Assembly (NCBI GenBank): GCA_949316235.1
Contig: OX438751.1
Location: forward strand, 7,216,413 to 7,280,412
Direction: 5' to 3'
Origin: Oegoconia quadripuncta
Lineage: Eukaryota; Arthropoda; Insecta; Lepidoptera; Autostichidae
DNA: 64,000 nucleotides
Part shown: in pieces, positions 837 through 41,099 of the stretch
How the letters are laid out: every line of letters begins with the position of its first letter
Numbering within the stretch: position 1 is the first letter of the stretch
Made by a program: the position numbers and the translations under genes
The notes under the pieces: model-generated
What the model saw: the letters and a program-made list of their open reading frames with translations, nothing else
What the model was told of the DNA's origin: nothing
Databases searched by the model: none

Positions 837-974
837 ATGGCAAGTTGGTGGTTTTCAGTGTTAGTGTTAGTTTGTCTTCAGCAAGTTTTCGCCAAGGACT
901 GCTCGTGGCTGGAAGGAATCACGAATTGTGATGATTGCGCGAGATGCGGTGGAGTCTGGTGTAATATTCTCGAT
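837..974 (+). CDS. Integrin-like exon 1: signal peptide and first half of PSI
   Basis: Residues 1-46. The start ATG at 837 has A at -3 and G at +4, and the next residues form a hydrophobic signal peptide ending near FA-KDC. The in-frame extension to 813 has no ATG. Mature residues C22, C31, C34, C37 and C42 give the cysteine spacing of a plexin-semaphorin-integrin (PSI) domain. The exon ends in phase 0 before GTAAGT at 975; without splicing the frame reads a stop soon after. Confidence 0.8.
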
Positions 975-9900: not shown

Positions 9901-12900
9901 ATATACTGTTATTATAATTCTAAATTTATATACATGCTGTAAGTTTACCAAACAAAAAAAAAATATTAACACTTAAATGATTTTCAATTTAGATATATAG
10001 ATAAAGCTTTTATTTGTTTCCAGAGACACACACATACATTTAGCATTATTGATACAGATAAGGTAACAAATTAACATCATAAGGTAACATAATAACATAA
10101 CAACCGTGTTGTTCAGGCCTGGAATAAGCTACCGGAAGAGGTTGTCTCCGCCCAATCAGTGAATTCGTTCCAGAATAGATTGGATAAATTTTTAAAAAAC
10201 TAGTGATGCCTTAAATATTGACTGAATAACAACATAATGAACAATGTGAACTCCTCCAACACTGTGACATAGACATACCAGCAGTAATGCTGCTCGTCTA
10301 TAATAATATAATAATAATAATAATAATTTTGTAACACTAACGCATTAGTGTGCAGCATCGGTACAAATGTGTCATTTTCAGCTATCCTCAATTTATTTGA
10401 CTTTAAACGTGACAAGGCCGAGAAACGTCGAATTAATTCTAGTGATTTGTAAAATATTCAGTGTCTGTAATTTCTAAATAAATATTACGGTTTCAACAAT
10501 TTATACCAACTGTACTTAACTACATCCGACTCTACCATCATTCTCTCGACGATTCATGCGATCCATAGATCAGAAATTATAGTTAATTTTAAGCGTTCCG
10601 TTCCATAATTGGAAAAACAGAACACTTATGACTTATTATGACCTCCGTGCCGGTGTTTTCCTGTCTGCCCGTCTCTTATAAACTCCTCGACCCAAACAAT
10701 TGTATAAGTTACAGAGGCAAATTTGGCATAGGTGAAATGTTTTAAACGGGTGAAAAAGAAAATGTTTCGTACCTATCGAGTGGAGAGTCAGATAAAATAA
10801 CTTTTGTATTATTTTAAAAATATATCACAAACCTTATTTAACAAAAGAAATATGTAAACAACACGTATTTTCTCAATAAATAGATCACTGGTTGGAATCC
10901 CGCTAGGGACATCATACAAAATGATGAATACGAAAGTTATGAATGTTTACATTTATAATATGTATATTAATTATTATTTTGCGCAATAAAGAGTACTTGT
11001 ATTGTATTTATTTAAATGTATGTATATTTCTTTATCTACCAATTGGTATCCATAATACAAGTCTAGTTGCTTAGTGTGGAAGTAAATGTGTGTGTCATCA
11101 AAACATAAATGTCACGCCAACTGGCTCCGTAGCTCAATATAAACAACATCAGGTGTCGGTCGCGTCTTCGATTCCCAGCGAGGTTCCTTTAATTCCCGGT
11201 TCTATGGCTACACCATCTGATTAGAATCTACCGTCAAAACTACAGCCTCATTTTCCCTAAACACTAGGTGCTTTCCTCATTGCATTGTGTCTCATCCATG
11301 CCACCTGTGCATGAAATCACCCCATCCTTGCCAATGCTGCAAGCGCCCTGTGTTGCTGCTCACTCTGGTTCCTTCTCGCAGTCGTCGGTCTCTAATGATG
11401 TGCATGATATAGTGATGTTCAGTGATGAAATTGGTAAGAGTATGGGTTTACAACTTACCCGTAATCTGGGTCAGGCAATAATTAATTATTGTCTGCCCGG
11501 AGCCACCTATATTGACATTTTAGAAAAAATACTATCTTACAATTTTAAGAAAAACACAACTCTTGTTGTATTCATCGGTAGAAAGGGAAATGCCAGCAGG
11601 AAAAAGATTGTTCAATTATTTTCAAAATTGAACATTTTGACCAATGTTGACAAAATTATTTTATTTGCGCTGCCTTTCAGCCAAAGTCTGACAGAGAATG
11701 AAAATATTACTAGATATAATTTAAATATGCTATTGCATAACATGTCATGTCATGACAATAAATTTCATATAATAGATACAAATAAATTTATTAAGAACTG
11801 TTATACTTTGACTAAAGATAATTACTATCTGTCTAGATATTTTAAGCGACAAATAGCTGAGTTGCTATCATATTATATAATTAATTCTGCCAAATCCTTG
11901 GCAAACACGACAACTGTTTCTATTGAGCAGTCAACTGACATTGAACAATCCTTGGAATCGATTCCAAGTTATTTAAATTAATATATAAGACAACAGAGGG
12001 TAACTCTGGCAATTTGTTAAAATTAAATAAAAATCAACCTTCATGTAAAAAATTTGAGCCCTCATCTAAATGTAAGAGTAACAAATTAAACCTAGTACAT
12101 CAAAATATTCAGGGCATTTTGGGCAAAGAGCTGGAGATTGAGCTATTCATGAACTGTCACAATATTGATATATTATGTATTACAGAACATTGGTTAAAAC
12201 AGGGTCAGTTCATGTTTAGCTTTAAAAATCATCAGGTTTCAAGTTCGTTCAGTAGGGATAAAGCGGTACGGGGCGGTTCCTTAATTATTACCAATAATAA
12301 ATTAAAACACCGGGAACGCTCGGATATAGTGAATCTCTCTGTTGAGCGAACTACTGAGTTGGCCTGTGTAGAGCTTGAGCGGCTTATTGTAATGAGCGTA
12401 TACAGACCCCCCAGTTCATCTTATGACGTATTCGAGGAAATTATGGACGAAGCATTAGGTAAAATTAGTAACAATAATAAATTTATTGTAGTTTGTGGCG
12501 ATTTTAATGTAATTTTTTTTTTTTTTTTTTTTTATTAAATTTAATTAAATAAATGTAAATTTATTAGAAGTGAGCAGTCTCAGTAATAGACTTAAAACTA
12601 TATTTTTAAGTTATAATCTTGTTCATAATTTCTCTGTGCCAACTCGAATAACACCAACTTCATCGACCTGTATTGATAATGTTTTTGCAAACTTCGATCT
12701 GAGTGACAAATCTATTATAAATAAGTTAACATCAGACCACTGTGGTCAATTAGTCCCGATTAACATACCCCTTAGCAAGTCTTTGGAAAGAAATATTATG
12801 TGTGTTCCTGTAAATGATGGTCGGCTCAAGCAATTTAGACATAATGTTATGGCAAAATTGTATGACTTGACAAATGTTATGTATGAGAGTCCGAATGAAT

Positions 12901-27900: not shown

Positions 27901-30900
27901 GTGTAAGCGCGCTTCCGCCTTCAACCATATCTGAAATGAGCCATTTATGCATTTTTTTTAAATTAGTGCTTAAATGCAGAATGCGTTGGGACTGAGTCAG
28001 AATCGTTTGACCATCGTTTCGAAATAGCATAGAGGTTTAAAGATATACAATGCCTCTACAACCTTATTATCTATTGTCAACACTAAGCTAAAAATATGCT
28101 GTATTCTCCACATCTTTAACTTTTGATTTTCCTTTGTCCTCAGGAATTCCACTGCAGCCACAACAGCGATGATTGGTGTCCCTCCGATCGCGAGAGGTTA
28201 CTGTTGACGAGGTCTACTTCCGTGCCAGGGTTACTTGTGGAGCCGCGTCATGTGGAACGGTCGGTCAGAGTTACAGATTCCGACCAGATAAGGATACATT
28301 ATAAACATGAGTCCAGTAATCCTAAGGTGAGAATATTCTGTAAGGTCATGCCTTGCATACATGAGGTACGTGTAGTAGCCGCTGACAAAGCAGGACTAGT
28401 CCTTGAATAGTATTGTTATACGAGGGTTTCCGTGCGTCGTTAGTACATTAAACAGACGGTCCAGAATGATTTGGACAGCAGTCGCTTGCCAAGTCTTGAA
28501 GTTTCTCCTCCCGGGTGGCATGACAACCGATCGAAATATTTGTGGTCACTACTCTACTATTATATTTGATATTAACACTGATTCGACAATGAGTGTGAAG
28601 AAAGACTGTTTCTTGTTTGGTGTAGTAGATAGTGAACCTGTCAGCGAAACCAACGGTTGCGGATTCGAATCCCGCGAGGGGTAAATGTTTGTGTGATGAA
28701 CACGAACATTTATTCCCGAGTCATGGAATATTAATATATTTATGTATGTTTATTCGTTATCTAGTACCCATAGTACAAGCTTTGCTTAGTTTGGAACTAG
28801 ATGATTGGTGTAAGTGTCCGAAATATTCATTACTATTATTCTTAATTCTAGTATTAAACGAAATTGTCGTTCGCAGATTGATATAAGTCTCGTGAACACC
28901 ACAGTTAAGGACGCGTTACAATACTTCAAAATAAACGTAGAGACAACCCTATGCAATGATGGCAAGTGTACTACCACAATTAGTGCCCAGCCGAATACTG
29001 AATTCTGTCCAGCCACAGGAACAGAGCTCGAGTTTATAACTATGAGAATAAGTATAGACGGGGTAGCTGAGGAGACTACGGCGAGGTACCACGTGCCGTG
29101 CGCATGCGAGTGCAGTAAGAAGGTGGAGAGGAAATCGGAGAAGTGCAAGGGGAATGGTGACTTCGCATGCGGAGCTTGTTCCTGTTACAATGAATGGTAA
29201 TCAATTTATAGATGATTAATTTCTGAATGTTGACGATAGTGTCGGACGCAATTCATTTTTATTCCCAACGATGCAGTGGTCGTATAGTGGATGCCGATTA
29301 GGAATAAATCGGAATCAAGGTTAACACTGGGGATCGATAGAAATAAAAATAAAGTTCTAACAGTCGCTAGTGGGACAGATTTGGTGATGGCCGATACAAA
29401 TTAACCGCCGCCGTGGCTCAATGTAAACAACATTGGGTTTACGATTCGGAGGTCGCGGGTTCGATCCCCAGCGGGTTACATGTTTAAGTACTCGGTTTGG
29501 TTGGTGGTAGGACATTATAAATGTCCGCCTGGCTAGCTACCATTTTATCTAAATCTGCCGCCAAGCAGCCGTGTTGTTGTGTTCCGGTTGTCAGAGATAA
29601 GATAGCCAGTCCCCCAAATGTGTTGGGATTTTTTAAAAATAGTTTGTTAACCAGATCAGTCATCATCATATCAAGTACAAATCCGTCGTGCATAAAAAAA
29701 AATATCAGCCGATAGATGTTTACTACTGGGCAAAGGCCTCCCTCGAAGATCTCCACAACGACCAGCGCCGACCTCAGTCTCCAGCTCCTAAAATAAACAA
29801 ACAACCAAACTTTCGCGTTTATAATATTAGTTAGATTTATAAAAAAAAATGGTTATAACTTTATCAGTCTATTATGTGTATGGGATGATCCATCGTAGCG
29901 ATTAAACTAACAATAGTTGTACATACAGACAAATTTTGTTAAATGAGATGTCGATGAATTCATTATAGGGTCACGAGTGTTAGCTATGCGCGCCATGTTG
30001 ATTCGAAATATAAAGTCAATCAAACGCAGTTGTTCTTATGATCGATCATAATTTATCTACTAGCTTTCCGCCCGCGGCTTCGCCTGCTTGGAATAATTTT
30101 ATCGCGGATATGTTTAATTTGTTAATTCCGCGGGAACTAACTACTTACTTCATCGGGAAAACACTTTAAATGATTTAATCCAGGGTATGTTCTACCTATC
30201 CAAATACACAAACTAACAAACATCCAAACTTTTGCATTGATAATATTAGTTAGATTAGATTAACGTTTTAGTCGGATTAGTTATTCAGTTAGTACAGCTA
30301 TAAAGGTCGTACTTCAAATTGTTTTATTATAAACGTTATTTTAAACGCTTTATCGCGGAAATTTGTTTACCCCGTGGGAACTACTCACTTTATCAGGATA
30401 AGAAATATCCTATGTTTTAATCCAGGGCATGTTCTATCTATATACCAAATTTCAAACAAATAAACCATGAAAAAACATCCAAACTTTCTCATTTATAATA
30501 TTTGTTAGAAGTAAGATGTAGAACTTCATGTTTTCATAGCCACTGAAATTCGCATTTAGCAGAAGTAATTACCCTAAGTAGTTTTTCAATAGAAACAGAA
30601 CTGGAGGTACATTGGCCCTACTTACCTACTTGACATCATTAATTAATTTAATATTGTAGACTTGTAGAGCATTGAAAAATAACCCAGTATTCGCCGTGTG
30701 ATTCATATGACCCATATGACATAGCTACACGCATATAAAGAAATAGTCCGTCCAATTCGGCGAAAAGATAATATGCCAAACGACCATACATTCATGAAGT
30801 CTCTTCTATGTTTCTTTCATTACCGCATATCACTTGCAAGTAGATATCTACTGGTATCTACTAAATAATTACAAAAACATCTCTGTAGGTCTCGTGACTG

Positions 30901-33900
30901 CGATGTTAATTATGTCATAAGGCCCCACTTTCCTCTTAATACAAGGCTTATTAAAAACGCTTTACGTATGAGGACAGATGTTGTTTCAACTATTCACAAA
31001 TAATTTGTCACGCTATTAAAATGGTTATGTTTACAAAATTCTTAAATGCTGTCTTGAATCATTAAAGTATAATATGGTAATTATAAAGACGTATAAAGTC
31101 CATGTAACATTGTCATTACGAACAATTTTTTATGATTGTACAATTTTACCTGAACTTGAACTCTTACTCGGAGAAATACTCGTAGAGAGAGTTGATAATA
31201 ACTCTGTCAATTTGATAATGTTAATTAGTTTTTTTTTTATTATAGCTGTGCACATAAGTCTTTCGAAAATTGATAACATAATAACTGTATTTATCATTCC
31301 ACTGAATTGATCTTTGAAATCGATGACAATTAAATTCTCTTGTTCACTGGCTTACGAATGGGGAAGTGACAGGCGAAAACAACCTTTTCGAAATTCAAAA
31401 AAATATTAAAACAATTTCCAAATTCATGGAATGCACAGTCTTCGATAACATTACATTTTAACATTTTAACTTAAAATTCAATTTACTGCTCCATAAGGCT
31501 GACTCCACGAAAAAGGATGATATATGATTCGACAAAACAAGAATAAAATAATATTGGTATAATTAGACTGAATATCGACTAAGGCTAATGTCCATGCTTG
31601 CATATTATCGAAATAGTCAGAAATTTTATAGTAGTCTTTGTATTTAGTTTCTGTTTTACGATGGTTTTGAATTTATTTAAAGGAAAAATCAGTCTTCCGG
31701 AACCTTATTTTAAAGGAGTATTATTATCCCATAAATTACTTGGAAGCAATATTTAATGATTTCGTGACCTGACTGAATTATTAAAAATATTCTGCATTCG
31801 TCATCAATCGTTGCTAAAATTATCACGTGTAAACTTGATATGCTTCTGTACTGAATACTATTATTTGCATATCTAAGACGGAATAAGTCCATTTTAAATG
31901 GCGCATCATGTGAGACAATGCGCTCAAAGTATCACTACCAAAATATCAGACGACTAACCCATATTAGATTAACCGTCTGACGACTTGAGTCAGAATTTCA
32001 GGGTAATTTGAATGATTTATTTTCTTTAAGAATTATTAGTAAATTGTATTCTAAACTTAAGGATGCCGACAAGAAAATAGATTCACGTTTATGTTTGCGT
32101 CGAAACCAAGATCATACCTATTACACACAATTTATTATTAAACTGCAATTGAAAGCTGCACCAACTAGAAGAAGTTGCATTACCCAACAGAAGTCAAAAG
32201 GAAATTACCTCTGATATAATGTAGTCTGATATATCTATCTTAATTCACTGACAGGTCTTTCTCAGGGCTCGCCATTGACTTCAAACTTCAAACTTCACCT
32301 TCATTTCAAATGAGGTGGGCAAGCATTCCCCAAACATTAGCGGTTGGGTGTTCCAAATATTAAAAATTTCATTCTTGTCATCCCCGATTCATATTTCGAA
32401 ATAAACAGAAATGTACACGTGACGGGAAAGCTCATCGCCGTCGAAACGAGCAAGTTTGTATATGTTTCTTGCAAGGTCCCTTAGCTGCCTTCTACGACAG
32501 ACGGGAAGATGAGGCTGAAGGTGAAAGCGCGCTCCTCTGACTGGTTTGACACCCAACTGATTTAAGGGGACTGGCTGTCTTATTTCACAGCCGTAATACG
32601 ACAATGTTATCACCTTTGCTGCTTAGCGGCAAACGTTGATAAGGCGGTGGTAGTTAGCCAGAGCATGCAGAGCCATCTGCGTAATGCTGCTGCATCGAAC
32701 TAAGATCCATCTGATCTGCCCTTAAATTATGTAACCTCATCGGTATCATCGTCGATAACGTTGACCAAATAGAAAACGGCAAATTGCCCAGCGAACGATA
32801 AGCCAACCAATCACACGTCAGAACGTAATGGATGATGATATCTGTCCACGAAAATTGTTACATTATAACCCCCTATTTAACGCTATTCTGTTGTGCTTAT
32901 AACGTTTGAATTATATTGATTTTACAATTTTGCTAAACGATACAACAGATTTAATAATACCAAAAACTGACCTATTATATATGTTCTCTGCTAGGACTGG
33001 CGAGACCTGCGAAGAGCGTCGGACAGCGACGGTCCCTCTATCAGGTGTACCCCTGCCAAAACCCGACGACTGCGACCGCGGCGACATATCAGCCTGCAAC
33101 TCAATCAAAGGGGTGAGCAACTAACGCTACAATTTCTAACTATAGGAAATGCAGACACCTATTCTCACTTCATTCAATCCTTTTCTGAAAAACCCTATAC
33201 TTTAAAATTGCCTCTGAACCATTCATAGGTAGGGAGCTGTCAATGCAGTCAGTTGGGCCATAGGCACATTTTTTACCAATCACTTGTGTAGAAGGGATTC
33301 AAAAGTACCTACGGAACAACCAGTTCAGTATAGTTGTTGTGCCTTGGGTCTTCCTAGCGAAGTCCTTCACGGTGCAAAAGTAAAACCAAATGCTTCCACG
33401 ACTATTAAAATATACTAGGCTAATTTCCATTCAAATGATTAGCGAGATACGAAATGTACATAACGTAACGTTTTTCGTTATATTTTAGTTTTGGTATTAT
33501 CGTACAAACTTAGCGCACTTGGCGCCCTGGGCCCGCAGTCTCGACATAGATAGCAACCGATTTCGGTCGTTAACTCCTAACGATCTTATTCTAAATGTTA
33601 TAGTGTTCATAATCATATCGGTTTTTGTTGGAAGCCTGAATCGTAGTTTCAATGGAAACCGATATTTTGATACTAAAGACTCTAATTCTCCAATTAAAAT
33701 AACATTGTTAGGACTTAACGACCGAAATCGGTGGTATAGCGATCGCTATCTATGTCGAGACTGCGGGGGCAAGGCAGTTATCTAAATAGTTACGTTTAAA
33801 CCTACCACCACACTATAAAGCACTTCACATTATGAAGAGAAAAAACGAGAAAAAGTTACTGTGAATGATCAATTTAAAGAAAATACAAAATTAATGGTGT

Positions 33901-36900
33901 CGCCTCAAGCCAAAAAAAGAATTGAAAAACGGAGCGCTAATATTTTTATTTTGTATTCAACATGAAGTCACTTTACTAAACGTGATCGGCTTCCTTTTGA
34001 TGCGTACGTGTGTAAAAATCAGCACCATTTGTTTCTGCATTTGCCTCGGACGACTTATACTTTGTCTCTTCTTCTTCTAAGTCTGAGGGTTATCAATGTT
34101 ATCATACAGTGGGCTGCATGACGGCCTTAACTGTTCCAGTTTAAGCTGGTCTTGTATCATTTAGGTTTTATTATAGCGTCTCGCTTTCAGCTGATACTGA
34201 AAGTAATAACGTGCGGCGTACAGTGCCTATATCGAAAGACATTTCTTTATATTGGTCACAACAATAACTTCTCCCTGTTCCTGTCAAGCTATGCATTCAT
34301 AAGATATTAATTAGGTACCTGTTGTAAACTCTATGGTTTAATTAAGCTATATACGATCTTCTCCACCATGGTCTTGCTTTTTTAACAATTGGATAAGGTC
34401 CAACCTTCTCCAGCATACATCCCAAATGCATCTGTCATCATCATCAACAATAAGTATTTCGTCTCCACTAATACCACACAGCCTCCATTTACTAAGAGAA
34501 GGAAAATGTATTCACCCTCCTTATCTAGTTGTGTCTTGGGATGTCTCACACCCATCTCTCTCTTATATTTAAAAGCTATGCTCTTGTCAGTACAGTCCTT
34601 TCCACACTTATCTACACCCATGCACTGCCTTATTACAAGAAATGATAATCTGTAGCCGTGAGCGATGCTTACAAATTCTTAAAGCGCCTCGTTACCTTAG
34701 AAGGTAAGATCCTTAATTGGATGTTTTCTTTTAATGATTGACTGCATTCGCGTTTACCACGATCTCACCTGATGGAAAGTGACGATGTGGTTGAAGATGA
34801 AGCACGCGATCCCAGTAAATGCCTATTCACTCTACCCTAAGGTTGTCGGATTCAGGAAAGACTGACGCCGGAAGGGAGTTCCATGCTTTGGATTTTCGGA
34901 TTAATCTCTTGGTGATGTCAAATTAATTTCTTGTGACAATGTACCTAATGCGTGTTGATGTTATAAAAGTAACTAATTGATTTCGTTCGTGATTCCAACA
35001 GTATTATTTTATAATAGGGTTAAATAAAGGCTTGCATCAACCGCTACGCCAGAGTCGGCTCTTTTGTTGCATTCCCTACCTACACACAAAAGTAAATGCA
35101 TGCATATGTTAATGAATTGATTGTATATTTGATTCTAACGGAACGAGTTTTTTTTTATTTGTTCGAGTGCAAACTATAAAACACGATATGGAGTACTTCA
35201 TACTAAGAAACTTTCGTTAAGTAGTCAACAGTCATATCGCCTTATATTGTTGTTGGTTCTTATGCTTTATAATAATATTATGGTATCGCTACTAGTAAGG
35301 GAATACCTATAATTGGCTCTATATTTCTTGTAATCATATTTAATTTTGATTCTTCACAATAAATTATTATACACCAGAGTGGATTATGGTTTCAAGCAAG
35401 CACCTACATGAATTTGTTAACATCCAATATATTTACTCCATCTATAACTTGTTCACAGTCAATATGCTCAGGCAATGGTCGTTGTTTGTGCGACGGCACA
35501 TGCGAGTGTTTCGCCGACCGGCCAGGCTCCCATTACTTCGATGAACACTGCGCAGACATCTGCACTGTGGCGAGCAACTGCGACGCCTGCCTCCATCATC
35601 CAACACCTGGCCGTTGCTTTGACTGCTACTTCATCATGTACATGGAGAACACCACGAAGATACCTGAAGGGGAAGAGGGGGTGTGGGAGAAATGCAAGGA
35701 GACGACAGCTGACTGCGTGATACAGTACGCAGCGATGAAAGACGACAATGGTGAAATGCACGTGATTGTAACGGATTCGTGTAATGAGGTGGCTGGAGAG
35801 CATCGGGCTAGTCCTTTGAATGGTTAGTATCTAACATTACAAACGATCATCAACTCAATTACAGGACGTCCATTGCTAAACTGTATGTATGTGAATGGAG
35901 TAACAAATAAACGATTTATCTATCTATCTAAATGTCCTACTCTGCGTTGCATGGTATCTATTCGAGAACTTTAATACTCCACTGACCAACAATTCTTTAA
36001 GTTCACTATAAAATGGATCTAATTTCACCGGTTTTAGATATTTCAAGCAGCTAATAAACGCGAAATGGTGAAGTTATATTCTATAACCGCACTATTTTGC
36101 TATGGCAAAGAACATAAGTCTCATATTGCTAAGTGATAACACCATTAGCACTTGAGTCAAGAAAATTAGCCCGGTGAATAAAATATCGCTGATCTCCATG
36201 TGTTATGGAGATCAGTAATAAAATATGCTTCAAATTATTTATTTCTTTTTTTTTGAACTAGCCCGCCGCCCGGCGCCAGTCTGTAGACTGCGTCCCGCGT
36301 GATTTTTTATTCTGTTTCCTCGCCAGTATGTCGAAAAACGTCGTACGATATACGTCCGTATATTGATTAAACACACTCGGCTCTATAGCACTTATATCGT
36401 AATGTACTATTATACACATCTTATATGTAACACGATTATCGGCAGTTCGACGCGGTAGCGTCACTGAACTTCGAAATACAAACGTGCGAAGTACTGTGGT
36501 TCGAAAGATCGTAGTTCCGATACTCTTTTGGTTGATCCATTGCTTACGCGATAAACCATACATCGACAGAATATTTCTTCGACAAACGCTAGTGCGAAAG
36601 AGACCTTTCGGCGGGACCTTAGCCTTCGATGTTAGGTTGAACATACCGGAGTTCTTTGACGATATATGTTGTTATCAATTCAATTCAATGTATTCATGCA
36701 ATTACAACGATATTGTGTTTGCTTATGAAATAGGCTTGTACATAAATTATATCATTAAATTAATTAAATTATTATATCTAAATTATCAATTCATTACTCA
36801 TGCATTATATCATCACCCTAAGGAAGCAGTAACACACAATAGGACGCGTTTTCACCTTCATAACTCAGAAAGACTGTATAAAATAAATAGCCGAACAAAG

Positions 36901-39900: not shown

Positions 39901-41099
39901 CGTGTAAATCTGTTGAGAAATGAATGAATTATATTGTGCCCAATAACAGCGTGAGCATTTGATAACTCCGACTGGCAATACTAAATGTGAAATTAAATAT
40001 ATATCGGATCAGTTTTTTTACCGTACCTAAGGAAAAAAATAAAAATAGAAAGTTTTTTTTTTTTTTTCAAAACCATCATCAAAAAATGCTATAATTGTAT
40101 CATTTGATGGTCGCGTTTGTAGCCTATTCCACATAATTACATCATTAAATGAATTAAATAAAGAAATCTTGGAAAAAATATGAATTCCAAATTAATTGTG
40201 GCATATCAATTTTCGTCCAGCGCGTGCGTTTATGAAAAAAAAATTAAACCAATAACATCTATCCCACTTACCTAATTTGCCTTATTTTTTTTACTTACGG
40301 TAAAAAAACCAACCGGTATATATAGTTCATCGTGTATATCACATGAAAGCTTATCAAAGCACGATATGAAAAATATTAATAGGTCTCTTATATTTCTGTA
40401 ACGAGTTTTAACCCGTTTTCGAAAATGATAACGCTTCAAAATTACTGTCCTCCAAAGATTCGCTTAGAAAATTATGAAAAAAATCCTAAACATTAGAAAT
40501 AAAGTGTAGATTGGAGGAAAGTTTTCAGGTTTGCATTACCTTGGATGTCTTTTATGCCAAAAAAGGCAGTAATAGTTACTGAACACGCACGCCCGAAATT
40601 TTTTTATTCAAAGTCAAATTCAAAAATACTTTATTTTGTAGGTACACAGAGTACACGTAAAATAGTCAGTTTTACATTTTTTAAGCTACTGCTTGTTCAA
40701 ATCTCCTGAGAAGTACAAGCAAGAAACTGGAAGGGTTGCTCTTTTATAATCAGGCTTTGATTTAACATTTTATTATCATTCGCCTTCATCATATCAGCCA
40801 ATGGTCCCACCCACTGCTGAACATAGACCTCCCCCGTACGCCTTCATACATACATAATAGAGCAGCACATTCAATGTAATTTCTCTCCAGTAACAGTCCC
40901 CGTGGTCCTGGGAGTGATAGCCCTCGTGGCTGCAGCGGCAGCGGTCGCCGGGTACATGCTGTGGAAGAACAAGACGCCGCCGCTGCCCCTCAATGACCCT
41001 CAGTACCAGAACATTGACGCTGAGGACTGTACAGGAATGAACCCCCTGTACAAACCTCCGACGTCGTCGTTCAAGAATCCTACGTATGGCAAATGGTAG
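837..41099 (+). CDS. Integrin beta-like protein lacking the betaI domain (six exons, 443 aa)
   Basis: Join of 837-974, 28144-28326, 28877-29196, 32995-33112, 35459-35822 and 40891-41099 gives 1332 nt, 443 residues plus TAG. Every junction is GT-AG and every phase matches. Order: signal peptide (about 1-19), PSI (20-58), N-half of the hybrid domain (59-107), C-half of the hybrid (108-182), I-EGF1 (183-220), an I-EGF4-like module (about 238-288), beta-tail (288-374), membrane segment (about 375-398), tail with NPLY (425-428) and NPTY (437-440). Canonical integrin beta chains are about 750-850 residues, pair with an alpha chain and bind ligand through a betaI domain inserted in the hybrid domain. 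Here that domain is absent, as are two I-EGF modules and the membrane-proximal HDRREF-type motif. It is probably a plasma-membrane protein able to recruit PTB-domain adaptors such as talin or kindlin. Open frames and consensus splice sites argue against a pseudogene. Ligand and partner are unknown. Confidence 0.85.
975..1428. other. Intron sequence, mostly unassigned
   Basis: About 1145-1340 contains phrases such as CGGTTAGGCCGATTTTAA that recur in degenerate form elsewhere (for example near 49340 and 55300), which suggests an old dispersed repeat. Boundaries could not be fixed. Confidence 0.3.
1429..1668. mobile_element. Possible degenerate inverted-repeat element
   Basis: Left (ATAAACCAATCTTGAGGTC) and right (TCTCAATCTTGAAAATGGTT) arms are partly complementary. 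The right edge GCGGGCCTTAG resembles the ends of the element at 42260-42414. The ORF inside is low quality and probably not a gene. Confidence 0.3.
2038..2400 (-). mobile_element. SINE family A, degenerate, interrupted by a MITE
   Basis: Left part (2038-2186) matches the 3' part of family A in reverse. After the MITE at 2187-2344 the SINE resumes with AGCTGGCAAGGCGGACATT, matching the middle of family A. The SINE is therefore older than the MITE. Confidence 0.6.
2187..2344. mobile_element. MITE with TA target duplication (TTGGTGTCGATTC... ends)
   Basis: Terminal inverted repeats: TTGGTGTCGATTCTGATGTA on the left and, on the right, the near-complement of the same sequence (ends ATCCGAATCGACACCAA). 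TA flanks both ends (2185-2186 and 2343-2344 region), as for Tc1/mariner-type insertions. It has no coding capacity. A half copy lies at 4519-4581. Confidence 0.65.
2401..3070. other. Intron sequence with an RTE-like 3' fragment at about 2400-2495
   Basis: CAGGACGTCCATTACTGAAC and CCAGAGTGACCTGCATCC match phrases shared with 40790, 41460, 47040 and 61530, a dispersed retroelement 3' region. From 2500 to 3070 nothing else is recognised; the ORFs near 2650-2917 look random. Confidence 0.4.
3071..3160. mobile_element. Very short MITE (about 90 bp)
   Basis: Left end TTAAGGGGCGCTATACACAT and right end ACGTGTGTAGCACCCCTAA are imperfect inverted repeats about 20 bp long. The interior is too short to code. 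Confidence 0.45.
3305..3516. repeat. Direct repeat, left copy (about 212 bp)
   Basis: Begins AGGCGGTTCTACTTGAAGCA and ends GGCTATAAACGCTGACAA. Nearly identical to 3847-4054. The two copies directly flank the SINE at 3517-3846. Confidence 0.9.
3517..3846 (+). mobile_element. SINE family A (full length)
   Basis: tRNA-derived: the 5' part carries a Pol III B box (GGTTCGATCCC) in GGTCGCGGGTTCGATCCCCA. Then come the body (GTTTGGTTGGTGGTAGGG, TCTGCCGCCAAGCAGCAATG, CCAGTCCCCCAAATGTG) and a 3' end CATCAGGTGTGATTGAG with an A tail. It lies exactly between the two ~210-bp direct repeats. Confidence 0.85.
3847..4054. repeat. Direct repeat, right copy (about 208 bp)
   Basis: Second copy of 3305-3516, starting immediately after the SINE A tail. 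Small differences (CACCCT for CACACT, AAACGATT for AAACAATT, small gaps) show the copies have diverged a little since duplication. Confidence 0.9.
4055..4518. other. Intron sequence, no gene supported
   Basis: A 91-codon ORF (4142-4417) has no recognisable motif and ends in AT-rich sequence, so I do not call it. Nothing else was recognised. Confidence 0.35.
4519..4581. mobile_element. Half copy of the 2187-2344 MITE family
   Basis: CTGGTTTTAGTTTAGTTTAG followed by TTGGTGTACATCCGAATCGA matches the right arm of the MITE at 2187-2344. No left arm is seen. Confidence 0.6.
4755..4890 (+). pseudogene. Non-LTR retrotransposon RT C-terminal fragment
   Basis: Frame through AAGGCATGGAACTCCCTTCC reads AKAWNSLPASVFPES then YNLGIFKSRVN, the conserved C-terminal end of Jockey/CR1-type ORF2 proteins. 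A related fragment lies on the minus strand at 34735-34915. No intact ORF remains. Confidence 0.6.
4952..5003 (-). mobile_element. SINE family B fragment
   Basis: GGTAGCGGGGTTCGAAACCG followed by CCACTACACCAAAGTC is the tRNA-like head of family B in reverse orientation, truncated. Confidence 0.5.
5013..5327 (-). mobile_element. SINE family A (near full length)
   Basis: Reverse copy: T-rich left edge, AATCACACCTGATGTTAAGT, CCACCAACCAAACCGAGTAC, and the reversed B box in GGGGATCGAACCCGCGACC, ending GAGCCACGG. Confidence 0.85.
5328..7253. other. Intron sequence, no gene supported; small hairpin at 5737-5763
   Basis: CTCGGAGAAG...CTTCTCCGAG forms a 10-bp stem-loop inside overlapping ORFs on both strands (5498-5900). 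Neither ORF shows a known motif; the plus one has hydrophobic stretches but reads as low-complexity T-rich sequence. The rest (about 5900-7250) is AT-rich and unassigned. Confidence 0.35.
7254..7515 (+). pseudogene. RTE-type LINE ORF2 C-terminal fragment
   Basis: The frame reads TAKLKRDWAGHVCRMPGD, the conserved 'K-x-WAGHxxRR' C-terminal block of RTE-clade ORF2, then decays into stops. The 3' side ends near an A-rich tail at 7506-7515. Confidence 0.6.
7516..8073. other. Intron sequence with a degenerate dispersed repeat
   Basis: Phrases around 7960-8000 (reverse of GTCCAATCTTTGTCC) also occur near 16650 and 51425, so an old repeat is likely. The 62-codon minus ORF there is a by-product of it. 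Confidence 0.3.
8074..8186. mobile_element. MITE with 27-bp terminal inverted repeats
   Basis: Left arm TTCATCGTTATCGTCATCGG and right arm CGATGACGATACCGATGAA are near complements. A second copy lies in reverse at 32735-32842, sharing the interior (ATTGGTTGGCT..., GGCAATTTG) and flanking phrases such as CTAAGGGCAG. Confidence 0.65.
8187..9324. other. Intron sequence, nothing recognised
   Basis: Several 60-75-codon ORFs occur on both strands without known motifs, start context or repeat similarity. AT-rich intron DNA. Confidence 0.35.
9325..9750. mobile_element. Inverted-repeat element about 425 bp, non-coding
   Basis: Left end ATATTGGGTCTTTACCTATG and right end CATAGGTAAGGACCTAGTAT are complementary with few mismatches, followed inward by AAATTGG/CCAATTT. 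The 76-codon ORF inside (9307-9537) starts outside the element and is not supported. Confidence 0.55.
9751..10101. other. AT-rich intron sequence, nothing recognised
   Basis: No coding or repeat signal beyond short A/T runs. Confidence 0.3.
10102..10203 (+). pseudogene. Non-LTR retrotransposon RT C-terminal fragment
   Basis: Open frame reads NRVVQAWNKLPEEVVSAQSV, then a short tail to TAG at 10201-10203. The WNKLPEEVV...F-x-x-x-LD pattern is the terminal block of CR1/Jockey-type ORF2. No upstream RT domain is nearby, so this is a 5'-truncated insertion. Confidence 0.6.
10204..11121. other. Intron sequence; (TAA)n microsatellite near 10301-10325
   Basis: A short AATAAT repeat probably marks the tail of the retroelement at 10102-10203. 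GCGCAATAAAGAGTAC near 10980 resembles a LINE 3' tail. Otherwise unassigned. Confidence 0.35.
11122..11240 (+). mobile_element. SINE family A, truncated head
   Basis: GGCTCCGTAGCTCAATATAA and TTCGATTCCCAGCG are a degraded family A promoter region. The copy stops before the LINE that follows. Confidence 0.45.
11268..11981 (+). CDS. LINE ORF1, C-terminal part (SGNH-esterase-like)
   Basis: Open to TAA at 11979-11981; the first ATG is at 11298. The order of a strand with FSDEIGKSM, a LVVFIGRKGN strand, a FALPFSQ strand and a DNYYLSRYF helix start resembles the SGNH/GDSL-esterase-like domain found in ORF1 of CR1-group LINEs. The classical catalytic Ser and Asp-x-x-His are not clearly conserved, so it may be inactive or a different fold. 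The N-terminus is missing because of 5' truncation. Confidence 0.5.
   Translation: MLSSLHCVSSMPPVHEITPSLPMLQAPCVAAHSGSFSQSSVSNDVHDIVMFSDEIGKSMGLQLTRNLGQAIINYCLPGATYIDILEKILSYNFKKNTTLVVFIGRKGNASRKKIVQLFSKLNILTNVDKIILFALPFSQSLTENENITRYNLNMLLHNMSCHDNKFHIIDTNKFIKNCYTLTKDNYYLSRYFKRQIAELLSYYIINSAKSLANTTTVSIEQSTDIEQSLESIPSYLN
12014..12512 (+). pseudogene. LINE ORF2 part 1: AP endonuclease N-terminal part
   Basis: Motifs in order: LVHQNIQG (Asn/Gln metal-site region), ILCITEHWL (catalytic Glu), SVYRPPSS, and VVCGDFNV (catalytic Asp/Asn), the order of the endonuclease/exonuclease/phosphatase domain of APE-type LINEs. Broken at 12513 by a poly(T) insertion. Confidence 0.8.
12513..12558 (-). mobile_element. 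46-bp poly(A)-type micro-insertion with 7-bp target duplication
   Basis: 21 T residues (12513-12533) and a short AT-rich stretch lie between two copies of AATGTAA (12506-12512 and 12552-12558). This looks like a minus-strand retroposed tail with almost no body. Its length shifts the ORF2 frame by one, and the two frames align when it is disregarded. Confidence 0.7.
12559..14966 (+). pseudogene. LINE ORF2 part 2: end of endonuclease and reverse transcriptase
   Basis: One frame from 12559 to TGA at 14964-14966, interrupted only by TAG at 12933-12935. It includes SDHCGQLVPI (final endonuclease block, catalytic His), then RT motifs RPISILPTFSKVFEKL, FCDLSKAFDCV, GVPQGSILGP, FADDTSLLF (active-site Asp pair) and LNEKKTKCIKF, followed by the thumb and a YYKISDYLDD C-terminus. 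The catalytic residues are all present, so the copy looks recently active. Confidence 0.85.
15214..16777. other. Intron sequence, nothing recognised
   Basis: AT-rich. A TTTG repeat lies at about 16340-16362 and part of a dispersed repeat (GTGTCCAATCTTTGTCCG) near 16640. Confidence 0.35.
16778..16969 (+). mobile_element. Helitron-like non-autonomous repeat
   Basis: Starts TCCAAACTAATATTATAAAT, ends GCGGACGAAAAGCTAG|T. The TC start, CTAG end and GC-rich short hairpin before the 3' end fit a Helitron. Sequence between ends is degenerate. Confidence 0.6.
16970..17819. other. Intron sequence, nothing recognised
   Basis: Short ORFs at 17024-17463 have no recognisable motif. Confidence 0.3.
17820..18003 (+). 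mobile_element. Helitron-like non-autonomous repeat
   Basis: TCTAACTAATGTTACAAATA at the left, GCGAAGCCGCGGGCGGAAAG then CTAG at the right, with ACGGATTTGGATGAAATTTG inside. Full-length copy of the commonest small repeat in the window. Confidence 0.75.
18004..18689. other. Intron sequence, nothing recognised
   Basis: AT-rich; a CGTAACGTAACGTAGGCC repeat at about 18390. No gene supported. Confidence 0.3.
18690..18792 (+). mobile_element. SINE family A, 3' fragment
   Basis: CCCCAAATGAGATGTGGTTT, CTTCACTTAACATCAAGGG and an A-rich tail match the last third of family A. Confidence 0.6.
19130..19290 (-). mobile_element. SINE family C
   Basis: Reverse copy: CTCGCGGGATTCGAACCTGC (reversed B box) and GCTACACCAATCCGTCGTC (tRNA-like head), with GGATACTAGATAACGGATAA in the body. 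The same phrases in plus orientation occur at 28617-28810. Confidence 0.6.
19547..19965 (-). pseudogene. Retroelement ORF fragment with RPDG...WDAT motif
   Basis: Minus-strand frames read GPTGKRPDGATLVPW, then VWDATCADTLAPSH, then after a frame change KYA..., FAA and GPWSSDTKQFVKDLSVRL ending GNSASVLGTMP. This block order is one I have seen as a repeated element-derived ORF; the RPD...WD-x-T spacing resembles a restriction-like (PD-(D/E)XK) nuclease core. It has several stops and frameshifts, so is dead. Family assignment uncertain. Confidence 0.45.
19966..20324. other. Intron sequence, nothing recognised
   Basis: No coding or repeat signal identified. Confidence 0.3.
20325..20915 (-). mobile_element. 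SINE family B, split by a nested MITE
   Basis: Left piece 20325-20441 (CAGCGCCATGTAGTTCCACA, AGGCTTGTATTATAGATAGC) and right piece 20782-20915 (reversed B box in GCGATTCGAACCCGCGATC, head CTACTCCAAACAGGTCGTC) form one SINE. The promoter end is on the right, so it reads on the minus strand. Confidence 0.75.
20444..20779. mobile_element. MITE with perfect 64-bp terminal inverted repeats
   Basis: Left end CAGGGTGTCCCTGGAAGTAT; the first 64 bases are the exact reverse complement of the last 64. TA flanks both sides (20442-20443, 20780-20781). The core is an A-rich tract and codes for nothing. The perfect ends imply a recent insertion. Confidence 0.85.
20963..21155 (-). mobile_element. Helitron-like non-autonomous repeat
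   Basis: Reverse copy: CTAGTGTTCCGCCTGTGGC at the left, ATACCAAATTTCATCCAAAT inside, ATAATATTAGTTAGA at the right. Confidence 0.7.
21390..21765 (-). mobile_element. SINE family D (tRNA-derived)
   Basis: GGTTTCCTCACGATGTTTTC, GCCACGCTGGCCCAGTGCGG and a reversed B box in GGGTATCGAACCTGGACCTC are hallmarks of a widespread lepidopteran SINE. The overlapping ORFs (21394-21651) are by-products of it. Confidence 0.6.
21766..23300. other. Intron sequence, nothing recognised
   Basis: About 1.5 kb AT-rich DNA with no clear repeat or coding signal. Confidence 0.35.
23301..23552 (-). mobile_element. SINE family B
   Basis: GTTCTTGGACATGCACACAG at the left; reversed B box in GCGGGATTCGAACCCGCGAC and head CCACTACACCAAACAGGTCG at the right. 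The ORF overlapping it (23418-23627) is not a gene. Confidence 0.75.
23553..24159. other. Intron sequence with a short GC-rich patch at about 23745-23830
   Basis: GCACAGCTGCGCGTGCGTCG and surrounding CpG-rich DNA stand out from the AT-rich intron. It could be an alternative promoter or enhancer, but there is no ORF or supported start site. Confidence 0.3.
24160..24230. repeat. Inverted repeat with internal short tandem repeats
   Basis: ATTACATCTCTAATATAC (left) and GTATATTAGAGATGTAAT (right) form an 18-bp stem; between and across them ACTCGTATATTAG recurs three times. Confidence 0.75.
24231..24599. other. AT-rich intron sequence, nothing recognised
   Basis: No coding or repeat signal. Confidence 0.3.
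24600..24870 (-). pseudogene. RTE-type LINE ORF2 C-terminal fragment
   Basis: The minus strand reads LKWDWAGHVGRMPCEL, then GRPRKRWRHELDS after intervening decay. Both are conserved blocks at the C-terminus of RTE-clade ORF2. Confidence 0.6.
24871..25220. other. Intron sequence, possible LINE 3' remnant
   Basis: CTCTCTCACTGGGAGAGGTT near 24905 resembles the phrase at 3478 and 4018. Otherwise unassigned. Confidence 0.3.
25221..25448 (+). mobile_element. SINE family A, internally rearranged
   Basis: Head ACCAGTTCCGTGGCTCAATG, but the B-box region is lost. It resumes with CTTATCTAAGTCTGCAACTA and ends with an A tail. Confidence 0.6.
25449..26873. other. Intron sequence, mostly unassigned
   Basis: Only AT-rich DNA, including an AATTGAATTAAAT-type inverted pair around 25900-26030, and the small ORF described separately. 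Confidence 0.3.
26628..26750 (+). CDS. Small ORF of 40 codons, unproven
   Basis: Starts ATGGCAGCCGTGTCCGC and ends TAA at 26748. Its first 30 codons are more GC-rich than surrounding DNA. No recognised motif and no upstream signals. It could be a small peptide, a degraded exon or chance. Confidence 0.12.
   Translation: MAAVSALCKLPTVVISSCPVSSFSVAPIEIFYTDIKFYYR
26874..27072 (+). mobile_element. Helitron-like non-autonomous repeat
   Basis: TCTAACTAATATTATAAAAG start and GGGCGCGGACGGAAAGCTAG end, with CAATCACGATGAAACGGATG inside. Confidence 0.7.
27073..27794. other. Intron sequence; poly(T) tract at 27118-27140
   Basis: The T run may be the reversed tail of a retroposed fragment, but no body could be identified beside it. 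Confidence 0.3.
27795..27957 (+). mobile_element. SINE family A, 3' half
   Basis: ATCTAAGTCTACCGCCAAGC, a CCCCCCAAATAAG core, CGCTTCCGCCTTCAACC and an A/T-rich end match family A. The head is missing. Confidence 0.6.
28144..28326 (+). CDS. Integrin-like exon 2: end of PSI and N-terminal hybrid strands
   Basis: Residues 47-107, phase 0 at both ends, acceptor TTTGTCCTCAG, donor AAG|GTGAGA. C50 and C58 complete the PSI cysteines. The stretch ending IRIHYKHESSNPK matches the last hybrid strand before betaI in ordinary beta chains, which normally continues into a YPVDLYYLMDLS-like start of betaI. That continuation is missing, so the exon stops at the domain boundary. Confidence 0.8.
28327..28876 (+). 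other. Intron 2 (550 bp), position of the missing betaI domain
   Basis: Phase-0 intron between the two halves of the hybrid domain. All three plus-strand frames lack a DxSxS metal-site motif or any betaI-like stretch. Its right part is the SINE at 28617-28810. The ORFs at 28403-28684 and 28632-28886 are not integrin sequence. Confidence 0.8.
28617..28810 (+). mobile_element. SINE family C
   Basis: Head GGTGTAGTAGATAGTGAACC with B box GGATTCGAATCCCGCGAGG, then ATGTTTGTGTGATGAACACG and GTTATCTAGTACCCATAGTA. Plus-strand relative of 19130-19290. Confidence 0.65.
28877..29196 (+). CDS. Integrin-like exon 3: C-terminal hybrid strands and I-EGF1
   Basis: Residues 108-213 plus two bases of W214. 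It opens with a hybrid-type strand (IDISLVNTTVKDAL), has a possible N-glycosylation site at N114 and ends with a C-x-C-x-C knot (CACEC) leading into I-EGF1 (CKGNGDFACGACSC). The acceptor TCGTTCGCAG is good, and donor TG|GTAATC gives a phase-2 end that exon 4 completes. This half of the hybrid domain normally follows betaI; here it follows exon 2 directly. Confidence 0.82.
29403..29702 (+). mobile_element. SINE family A with an RTE-like junction
   Basis: Intact head and body. From about 29636 the usual end is replaced by TTGTTAACCAGATCAGTCAT, the same phrase that follows the SINE at 61500, before the final CGTGCATAAAAA tail. It looks like a mosaic or nested insertion. Confidence 0.75.
29703..29838. 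mobile_element. Retroelement 3' fragment followed by a Helitron-like end
   Basis: TATCAGCCGATAGATGTTTA and GAAGATCTCCACAACGACCA match the piece at 41455-41570. 29797-29838 ends GTTTATAATATTAGTTAGA, the left end of the Helitron-like family in reverse. Confidence 0.5.
30060..30254 (-). mobile_element. Helitron-like non-autonomous repeat
   Basis: CTAGCTTTCCGCCCGCGGCT at the left and ATAATATTAGTTAGA at the right; internal deletion relative to other copies. Confidence 0.7.
30346..30509 (-). mobile_element. Helitron-like repeat, truncated at the CTAG end
   Basis: TTATCGCGGAAATTTGTTTA, ATATACCAAATTTCAAACAA, then ATTTATAATATTTGTTAGA. The GC-rich terminal hairpin is missing. Confidence 0.6.
30510..31554. 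other. Intron 3 sequence, nothing recognised
   Basis: AT-rich. The 78-codon ORF at 31074-31310 is hydrophobic low-complexity sequence and not supported. Confidence 0.35.
31555..31715 (-). pseudogene. CR1/Jockey-type LINE fragment
   Basis: The reverse strand reads through LNKFKTIVKQK and YYKISDYFDN, matching the C-terminus of ORF2 in the element at 11250-15213. Truncated and frameshifted. Confidence 0.65.
31716..32510. other. Intron 3 sequence, nothing recognised
   Basis: No gene or repeat identified; short ORFs are not supported. Confidence 0.3.
32511..32661 (-). mobile_element. SINE family A, degenerate
   Basis: GATGAGGCTGAAGGTGAAAG, GGGGACTGGCTGTCTTATTT, TGCTGCTTAGCGGCAAACG and GGCGGTGGTAGTTAGCCAG follow family A in reverse. 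Both ends are lost. Confidence 0.6.
32735..32842. mobile_element. MITE, second copy of the 8074-8186 family
   Basis: CTCATCGGTATCATCGTCGA on the left and ACGTAATGGATGATGATA on the right; reverse orientation relative to 8074-8186, with shared GGCAAATTGCCCAGCGA interior. Confidence 0.6.
32995..33112 (+). CDS. Integrin-like exon 4: end of I-EGF1, linker and start of next I-EGF, with RGD
   Basis: Residue 214 (last base) to G253. Acceptor TTCTCTGCTAG, donor GGG|GTGAGC, phase-0 end. It supplies TGETC, which closes I-EGF1, then a proline-containing linker not typical of beta stalks, then a DDCDRGDISAC segment. R242-G243-D244 is an RGD tripeptide just after a cysteine. Exon 5 continues with SICSGNGRC, the core of an I-EGF module. 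Confidence 0.75.
33113..33523. other. Intron 4 sequence, nothing recognised
   Basis: Starts with the exon 4 donor GTGAGC. No repeat or ORF of note. Confidence 0.35.
33524..33775. mobile_element. MITE-like palindromic element with about 70-bp arms
   Basis: Left GCCCTGGGCCCGCAGTCTCG and right CGAGACTGCGGGGGCAAGGC are inverted repeats; complementarity runs on through CATAGATAGC and CCGATTTCGGTCGTTAA, with a short insertion in the right arm (GCGATCGC). The 88-codon ORF across it is an artefact of the palindrome. Confidence 0.7.
33776..34734. other. Intron 4 sequence, nothing recognised
   Basis: Overlapping ORFs on both strands at 34382-34655 have no recognisable motif. Confidence 0.3.
34735..34915 (-). 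pseudogene. Non-LTR retrotransposon RT C-terminal fragment
   Basis: The minus strand reads KAWNSLPASVFPES, as at 4755-4890, then decays; TCACCTGATGGAAAGTGACG marks its 3' side. Confidence 0.6.
34916..35458. other. Intron 4 sequence, nothing recognised
   Basis: AT-rich DNA ending in the exon 5 acceptor. Confidence 0.3.
35459..35822 (+). CDS. Integrin-like exon 5: I-EGF4-like module and beta-tail domain
   Basis: Residues 254-374 plus one base of V375. Acceptor AACTTGTTCACAG, donor G|GTTAGT. SICSGNGRCLCDGTCEC is the C-x-C-G-x-C-x-C signature of an I-EGF module. It is followed by the link seen between I-EGF4 and the beta-tail (CADICTVASNCDACL) and then a cysteine-containing beta-tail domain with an N-glycosylation sequon at N317. 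Compared with classical stalks, I-EGF2 and I-EGF3 seem absent. No further EGF-coding exon was seen in introns 3 or 4. Confidence 0.82.
35823..36257. other. Start of intron 5, nothing recognised
   Basis: Begins with GTTAGT donor. A TCTATC repeat lies near 35920. Confidence 0.3.
36258..36936. other. Overlapping unidentified ORFs on both strands
   Basis: Minus ORF of 128 codons (36644-36258, ends DWRRAAG) and plus ORF of 150 codons (36484-36936). The minus ORF has a GC-rich C-terminal end and a run of similar short units (TTIFRTTVLRTFVFRSSV). Neither matches a family I recognise and no splice context is evident. It may be an unrecognised transposon ORF, a nested gene or chance. Confidence 0.2.
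36937..37340. other. Intron 5 sequence, nothing recognised
   Basis: CTATCTATCTAT microsatellite near 37270. Confidence 0.3.
37341..37729 (+). mobile_element. SINE family A with a nested MITE
   Basis: Degenerate family A head (GTCGTGGATTCGATGCCCAG) and body to about 37515, then foreign GC-rich sequence, then the SINE tail CATTGTGCATAAAAAG. Confidence 0.6.
37571..37684. mobile_element. MITE with GCGCGCGA-rich terminal repeats
   Basis: CGTTTATCGCGCGCGATG at the left and ACATAAATGTTTATCGCGCC at the right. The interior (TTGTATATTTCGTCCAAGTA) is the reverse complement of that at 51950-52073, so the two are copies of one family in opposite orientation. Confidence 0.55.
37741..38130 (-). pseudogene. 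CR1/Jockey-type LINE, 5'-truncated copy
   Basis: Starts (reverse of the tail) AGTCAAAGTCAAAAGTCAAA; CCCCAGAGAAGAACGAGCAA is the reverse of the 3' UTR at 15070-15110. The minus frame reads FYNKVPVDIQNLPLNKF and YYKISDYLEDKQAWT, almost identical to the end of ORF2 at 14966. Confidence 0.8.
38131..40011. other. Intron 5 sequence, nothing recognised
   Basis: About 1.9 kb without clear repeat or coding signal; ORFs under 90 codons only. Confidence 0.35.
40012..40309. mobile_element. MITE with GTTTTTTTACCGT terminal repeats
   Basis: Left GTTTTTTTACCGTACCTAAG, right CTTACGGTAAAAAAAC. Shares TCAAAACCATCATC, GTAGCCTATTCCACATAATT and GCCAATAACATCTATTTCAC-like stretches with 62664-63040. Confidence 0.65.
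40310..40607. other. Intron 5 sequence, nothing recognised
   Basis: AT-rich DNA. Confidence 0.3.
40608..40850 (-). mobile_element. LINE 3' fragment and adjoining RTE-like piece
   Basis: CAAAGTCAAATTCAAAAATA and AAGCAAGAAACTGGAAGGGT are a relative of the CR1-type 3' UTR in reverse (40608-40750). ATCAGCCAATGGTCCCACCC (about 40790-40850) belongs to the dispersed RTE-like 3' region. Lies just upstream of exon 6. Confidence 0.5.
40891..41099 (+). CDS. Integrin-like exon 6: membrane segment and cytoplasmic tail
   Basis: Residues 375-443, acceptor TTTCTCTCCAG, stop TAG at 41097-41099. An alanine/valine-rich membrane helix (about 375-398) is followed by LWKNK and a 41-residue tail. The tail keeps NPLY and NPTY, starting 12 residues apart as in classical integrin beta tails, with a TSS cluster between them where kindlin-binding Ser/Thr residues sit. 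The conserved HDRREFAKFEKE-like membrane-proximal segment is replaced by a proline-rich stretch with a DPQY. Confidence 0.85.

Follow-up and report, generated by a model that had tools for sequence, protein, structure and literature searches.

A betaI-less integrin-beta-like gene family of ditrysian Lepidoptera with an invariant RGD, a candidate role-reversed integrin

Our analysis of the window (the whole stretch of DNA under study, 64 kb without any N) confirmed that it contains a real betaI-less integrin-beta-like gene, and this gene is functional and belongs to an integrin-beta-derived family found in ditrysian Lepidoptera. Judged from the sequences, there is close to an even chance that its product acts as a single-chain, membrane-anchored RGD counter-receptor with a signalling tail of its own. 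We tentatively propose, with a likelihood somewhat short of even, that the family represents a role-reversed integrin, i.e., a duplicated beta chain that discarded its head, fixed an RGD loop and became a signalling ligand for the integrins from which it derives, kept across ditrysian Lepidoptera.

The gene extends over positions 837-41099 of the + strand and comprises six exons with GT-AG borders, which encode a protein of 443 aa followed by a TAG stop codon; for exon 4, a single pair of borders leaves the frame open within the ranges searched. With these borders and the open frame, the six-exon, 443-residue betaI-less integrin beta chain described in an initial annotation was confirmed. Its features are as follows:

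837..974, + strand: exon 1, signal peptide and beginning of PSI; donor GTAAGT; phase 0, the same in sister A (see below)
28144..28326, + strand: exon 2, remainder of PSI and N-terminal hybrid half; ends at the position at which the betaI part of the sister genes begins
28327..28876, + strand: intron 2, 550 bp, site of the lost betaI; no betaI remnant seen
28877..29196, + strand: exon 3, C-terminal hybrid half and most of I-EGF1; starts in phase 0, the same in both sister genes
32995..33112, + strand: exon 4, end of I-EGF1, linker and first Cys loop of the last I-EGF
33077..33085, + strand: RGD, residues 242-244, invariant in 33/33 family members
35459..35822, + strand: exon 5, remaining part of the last I-EGF and beta-tail domain
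40891..41099, + strand: exon 6, membrane helix and cytoplasmic tail, including the stop
40893..40967, + strand: membrane helix, residues about 376-400 (377-401 in the structure model)
41004..41015, + strand: YQNI motif, residues 413-416
41040..41051, + strand: NPLY motif, residues 425-428
41076..41087, + strand: NPTY motif, residues 437-440

Intron 1, which spans 27 kb, harbors a non-LTR retrotransposon at window positions 11945-14966, consisting of an endonuclease-like ORF (PF03372) and a subsequent 676-aa frame with a reverse transcriptase domain (PF00078).

The 443-aa chain shares common descent with integrin beta chains. Its residues 21-223 align with the PSI-hybrid-EGF1 region of these chains, which also stand on top of the VIA list (this list covers residues 22-253 only), while a Pfam search of the protein gave no PSI match. 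According to the cysteine pattern, it carries two I-EGF modules, not the canonical four. In the predicted structure, the hybrid domain reaches pLDDT values of 90-98, which supports the view of the initial annotation that loss of the betaI insert left a continuous hybrid domain.

A betaI profile built from nine chains from the homologue searches, neither neighbouring gene included, found nothing in the six frames of the window (best score 7.7 bits, E 0.44). The same profile recovered the two betaI exons of each of the neighbouring genes described below, with 229 and 72 bits in neighbour A and 175 and 69 bits in neighbour B. The intron at 28327-28876, initially noted to lack a metal-site motif, yields no betaI remnant to the profile either, and neither a betaI exon nor an assembly gap, two of the circumstances under which the annotation would have fallen, is present in the window. 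Searching the genome with PF00362 revealed at least 13 matches (the counts being lower bounds). Four lie just upstream on the same contig, where they belong to two genes; contig 9 holds five, contig 11 four, and the window none; betaI-bearing paralogues, which the initial annotation had proposed to look for, are thus found directly next to the gene. A DxSxS-like MIDAS motif was detected in 0/33 family members.

Of the two upstream genes, sister A (neighbour A above; C10:7205399-7212312) is complete and lies on the same strand, with its end ∼5 kb upstream of the window gene; its eight exons encode 772 aa including betaI and four I-EGFs. Of the second betaI-bearing integrin beta gene, neighbour B, which is located upstream on the opposite strand, only parts were seen. 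Both lie in L009 and L010 (C10:7197500-7217300), and the window gene forms a three-gene cluster with these betaI-bearing betanu-type genes. The window gene and sister A share their intron phases after exon 1 (0), after betaI, i.e., before window exon 3 (0), in I-EGF1 (2), in the last EGF (0) and before the membrane helix (1), and phase 0 after betaI is also found in neighbour B. In sister A, betaI is spread over exons 2 and 3, of which the window gene retains only the pre-betaI part of exon 2. Exons 5 and 6 of sister A, encoding the end of EGF1, EGF2, EGF3 and the start of EGF4, are represented by a single window exon (32995-33112) that resembles exon 5 at its start and exon 6 at its end. The comparison shows two losses relative to sister A: betaI and the I-EGF2-3 pair. 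As an exon runs across the 5′ border of betaI in both neighbouring genes, loss of betaI would have needed either the gain of a donor site or a deletion with its end in an intron. For the same reason, plain skipping of whole betaI exons was rejected as the full story.

A single-sequence search retrieved 32 homologous proteins with a query coverage of 88-100% and identities of 32-46%, the next match having an E value of 2.8e-6. The same 32 proteins were recovered in a profile search at 451-676 bits; the next protein scored 130 bits, and among the 48 further proteins from this score downwards, 45 contain PF00362, P0034 is a fragment, and P0072 and P0079 are fish proteins without betaI. The betaI-less architecture is common to all 32 homologues, and the 26 named ones are all lepidopteran, coming from Plutella, Tuta, Hyposmocoma, Cydia, pyraloids, Manduca, noctuoids and butterflies. 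Hence, the lepidopteran PSI-hybrid-EGF-tail proteins of ∼440 aa anticipated by the initial annotation exist, and decay of the gene in relatives, which it had considered, is contradicted by their shared architecture. Six homologues (P0005, P0008, P0018, P0020, P0029, and P0030) are whole ORFs of 411-486 aa, although the longest contigs that carry them measure just 1,435-4,301 bases; because five introns stretch the window gene over 40 kb, such short contigs are read as probable spliced transcripts, and transcription of the family is very probable. In P0010, P0014, P0020, and P0021, we observed inserts between I-EGF1 and the RGD-bearing EGF, which in some of them comprise an extra EGF-like unit. 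Conservation was measured as protein site rates on a tree with a length of 17.8 changes per site. By region, the rates are 1.28 for PSI, 1.69 for the N-terminal and 1.23 for the C-terminal half of the hybrid domain, and 1.01 for the beta-tail domain, and the slowest large region is the distal tail with a mean rate of 0.21.

For 16 species, the family search and the betanu search each gave a protein, and in 14 of them the family protein and the betanu-type protein are on contigs of equal length (exceptions: Chilo and Leptidea). Locus numbers for family and betanu-type protein are consecutive in Loxostege (ABMA28_013334/013333), Mythimna separata (PYW07_000859/000858) and M. loreyi (PYW08_001206/001207), and two apart in Tuta. 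In an unrooted tree, calculated with betaI cut out and including 18 of the 33 family members and 19 betanu-type rows, the 18 family members form one branch (support 100/100, stem 1.88). Another branch holds 18 of the 19 betanu-type rows, with P0118 placed in the betaPS group, and the split between the family together with the 18 betanu-type rows and all remaining chains is supported by 95/81. Descent of the family from a betanu gene is therefore likely rather than proved, since the tree is unrooted.

RGD is the classic recognition motif of integrins, and many RGD tripeptides are not integrin ligands. The motif is present in 33/33 family members, where intron position and cysteine order locate it to the first Cys loop of the last I-EGF, and R242-G243-D244 is the sole run of three consecutive invariant ectodomain residues in the family alignment. 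When the loop was read by a regular expression, RGD was found in the same loop in 0/37 betanu-type matches (P0081-P0118, 38 with one unreadable), 0/48 other matches of the profile search (P0033-P0080) and 0/53 mainly mammalian matches (56 with three unreadable), all counted, including the weak readings of seven mainly mammalian rows and P0071, in which the expression picked another, longer loop. The expression missed three family rows, for which RGD was read from the sequences or the alignment. The loop mostly has a length of 8 residues in the family (range 7-12; 24 in P0028, where the first Cys is displaced) and 6 residues in the other chains. Among 227 Cys-free ectodomain triplets, RGD is the slowest with a mean rate of 0.048, followed by GNG of the EGF core with 0.142; R, G, and D evolve at 0.04-0.06, compared to 1.0 for the flanking D241 and 0.64 for I245, and some single ectodomain residues elsewhere match them in slowness. 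The RGD segment is predicted to be flexible, as its pLDDT is below 50 in the window protein and averages 61 over the block in P0001.

Outside the loop, RGD occurs in 3/38 betanu-type chains (two of them isoforms of one gene) and in 5/48 other matches. Such chance RGDs in the comparison chains lie elsewhere and are unconserved, and chance occurrence in the EGF loop was rejected. Likewise discarded was a [KR]-RGD protease site, as a basic residue precedes RGD in just 16/33 members with the expression used. Second RGDs are seen within the family in I-EGF1 of P0003, P0007, and P0030 (CNGRGDLSC-like) and at residue 351 of P0018. In 43 of the 56 mainly mammalian beta chains (P0119-P0174) an RGD is present, which mostly corresponds to the PRGDCDG-like motif of the beta2 hybrid domain. 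The RGDs of the comparison chains, like the equally slow single residues of the ectodomain, weigh against the ligand reading.

All 33 cytoplasmic tails contain paired NPxY-type motifs, the second of which was read as NPx[YFW] and ends in Y in 29 members and in W in four pyraloid-type ones. An HDRRE-type membrane-proximal motif was found in 0/33 family members, compared to 18/39 betanu-type and 40/48 other chains; as the expression also misses 21/39 betanu-type chains, its absence is not unique to the family. Conversely, Y-x-N-[ILVM] is present in 28/33 family tails but in 0/39 betanu-type and 0/48 other chains, and the remaining five tails read YQDI (one) or YQEL (four). The site rates of Y413 and I416 are 0.05, and that of N415 is 0.13. 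Grb2 and Drk prefer pY-x-N, and Y-x-N-I resembles such a putative Grb2/Drk SH2 site. YQDI and YQEL are unfit as Grb2 sites and count against the signalling reading. In the pyraloid-type P0015, P0019, P0024, and P0029, YQEL replaces YxNI and NPMW or NPLW replaces NPTY, which suggests a changed function of these tails.

Four sequence features had not been foreseen by the initial annotation, namely the invariance of RGD, the loss of EGF2-3, the lack of an HDRRE-type motif and the presence of YxNI, and they point to a ligand or counter-receptor role over that of a passive adaptor sink. In the proposed counter-receptor, the ectodomain would be a stalk composed of PSI, a continuous hybrid domain, one EGF, a second EGF with RGD at its flexible start and the beta-tail domain. 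Its RGD loop would be gripped by RGD-binding integrins on another or the same cell, and the tail with Y-x-N-I and two NPxY-type PTB sites would relay or tune a signal, with YxNI being phosphorylated and then read by an SH2 adaptor. A receptor chain would thereby have turned into a ligand for its own relatives. In canonical integrins, it is betaI that holds the ligand site and makes the principal contact to the alpha propeller. As both betaI and the HDRRE inner-clasp motif are missing, the headless chain most likely works without an alpha chain. As the RGD-bearing EGF adjoins the beta-tail domain and is thus close to the membrane, it may be hard to reach in trans. Insect integrins that bind RGD are mentioned in a review (PMC9218073).

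The main rival to a counter-receptor, which could be compatible with a ligand role, is that the tail titrates or recruits talin, kindlin or other PTB adaptors while the ectodomain is a passive stalk, so that the protein serves as an adaptor sink or signals independently of ligands. This comes close to the receptor that the initial annotation had suggested to signal or to titrate adaptors, and its adaptor side stands, since the tail is still able to hold them. The slow distal tail (0.21 versus 1.0-1.7 for PSI, hybrid and beta-tail), the NPxY-type motifs in 33/33 members and the report that beta tails of integrins suffice, when clustered, to trigger nascent adhesions (PMC6450878) speak for it. 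Nevertheless, we consider this reading rather unlikely: it leaves unexplained why the slowest triplet of a fast-evolving ectodomain is RGD, as well as the YxN motif, and both suggest a ligand role instead of a passive sink. Talin also contacts the membrane-proximal helix motif, and this motif is missing here.

The ectodomain evolves fast, with mean rates of 1.0-1.7 in most domains, like that of immune receptors, and B. mori beta4 is altered after parasitism (PMC9506100), so that the protein could be an orphan adhesion or immune receptor whose RGD is kept for a non-integrin partner or for folding of the last EGF. We regard this as improbable, given that the last EGF folds without RGD in 37 betanu-type, 48 other and 53 mainly mammalian chains, and the modelled disorder of the RGD segment argues against a packing role. 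Still less probable is a dominant-negative chain that pairs with alpha chains via its leg and membrane helix and blocks or competes for them: the beta-tail domain and membrane helix are retained, and unusual beta1 paralogues of zebrafish have been suggested to act in this way (PMC1538996), but there is neither a betaI to hold the alpha propeller nor an HDRRE inner clasp. An artefact, whether a missed betaI exon, a mis-assembly or a decaying pseudogene, might be suspected from the 27-kb intron 1 with its retrotransposon, as large introns may hide exons. Yet, the gene is open over six exons, the window is free of betaI signal, and the 32 strongly conserved homologues, six of them on short contigs, are alike; these explanations were rejected and retain a negligible probability.

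The gene is probably orthologous to integrin beta4 of Spodoptera litura and Bombyx mori, based on length, exon count and position. Beta4 of S. litura is described as a protein of 432 aa from six exons on scaffold449(-) 247,062-275,746, and its gene adjoins that of beta3, which has 725 aa and eight exons (PMC10379305). By qRT-PCR, its expression is high when the testes fuse, and it shares a separate branch with B. mori beta4 and Danaus beta3 (PMC10379305). B. mori beta3 and beta4 carry the neighbouring identifiers BMSK0001792 and BMSK0001793 and are listed with -1.78 and +1.16, respectively, in a table of genes regulated after tachinid parasitism (PMC9506100). Silkworm beta3 serves as a plasmatocyte marker (PMC8119652, PMC8914287). 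In contrast to our reading, the available sections of PMC10379305 and PMC9506100 catalogue beta4 as an ordinary integrin beta, with the missing betaI, the RGD and the tail unremarked. A description of a betaI-less insect integrin was not found in our literature search, which included one aimed at the missing betaI.

The presence of the betaI-less family in butterflies, noctuids, pyraloids, gelechioids, tortricids, Plutella and Manduca means that the remainder of a beta chain can be reused otherwise; to our knowledge, every integrin is considered to have betaI as its working part. If integrins indeed bind the invariant RGD, a receptor would have evolved into a ligand of its own family, and moths would possess a natural regulator of cell adhesion. 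The gene of this candidate RGD ligand neighbours genes whose silkworm counterpart, beta3, marks plasmatocytes.

Compared to known systems, the family resembles betanu-type chains (sister A, P0081-P0117) in the intron phases outside the lost blocks, PSI, the hybrid halves, I-EGF1, the last I-EGF, the beta-tail domain and the membrane helix. In contrast to the family, these chains have betaI, four I-EGFs in sister A, no RGD in the last EGF loop and no YxN[ILVM] tail. Truncated beta1 paralogues of zebrafish differ in that they retain a mutated A domain (PMC1538996). The teleost integrin-beta-1-like proteins P0072 (Xiphias, 377 aa) and P0079 (Menidia, 492 aa) also run from hybrid half to hybrid half without betaI, apparently through a loss independent of that in moths, but a membrane helix or NPxY tail was not found in them by eye. 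In disintegrins and ADAM15, RGD is presented in a short, flexible, cysteine-bounded loop. The moth chain has a comparable RGD loop on an unrelated fold, and its carrier is an integrin chain itself.
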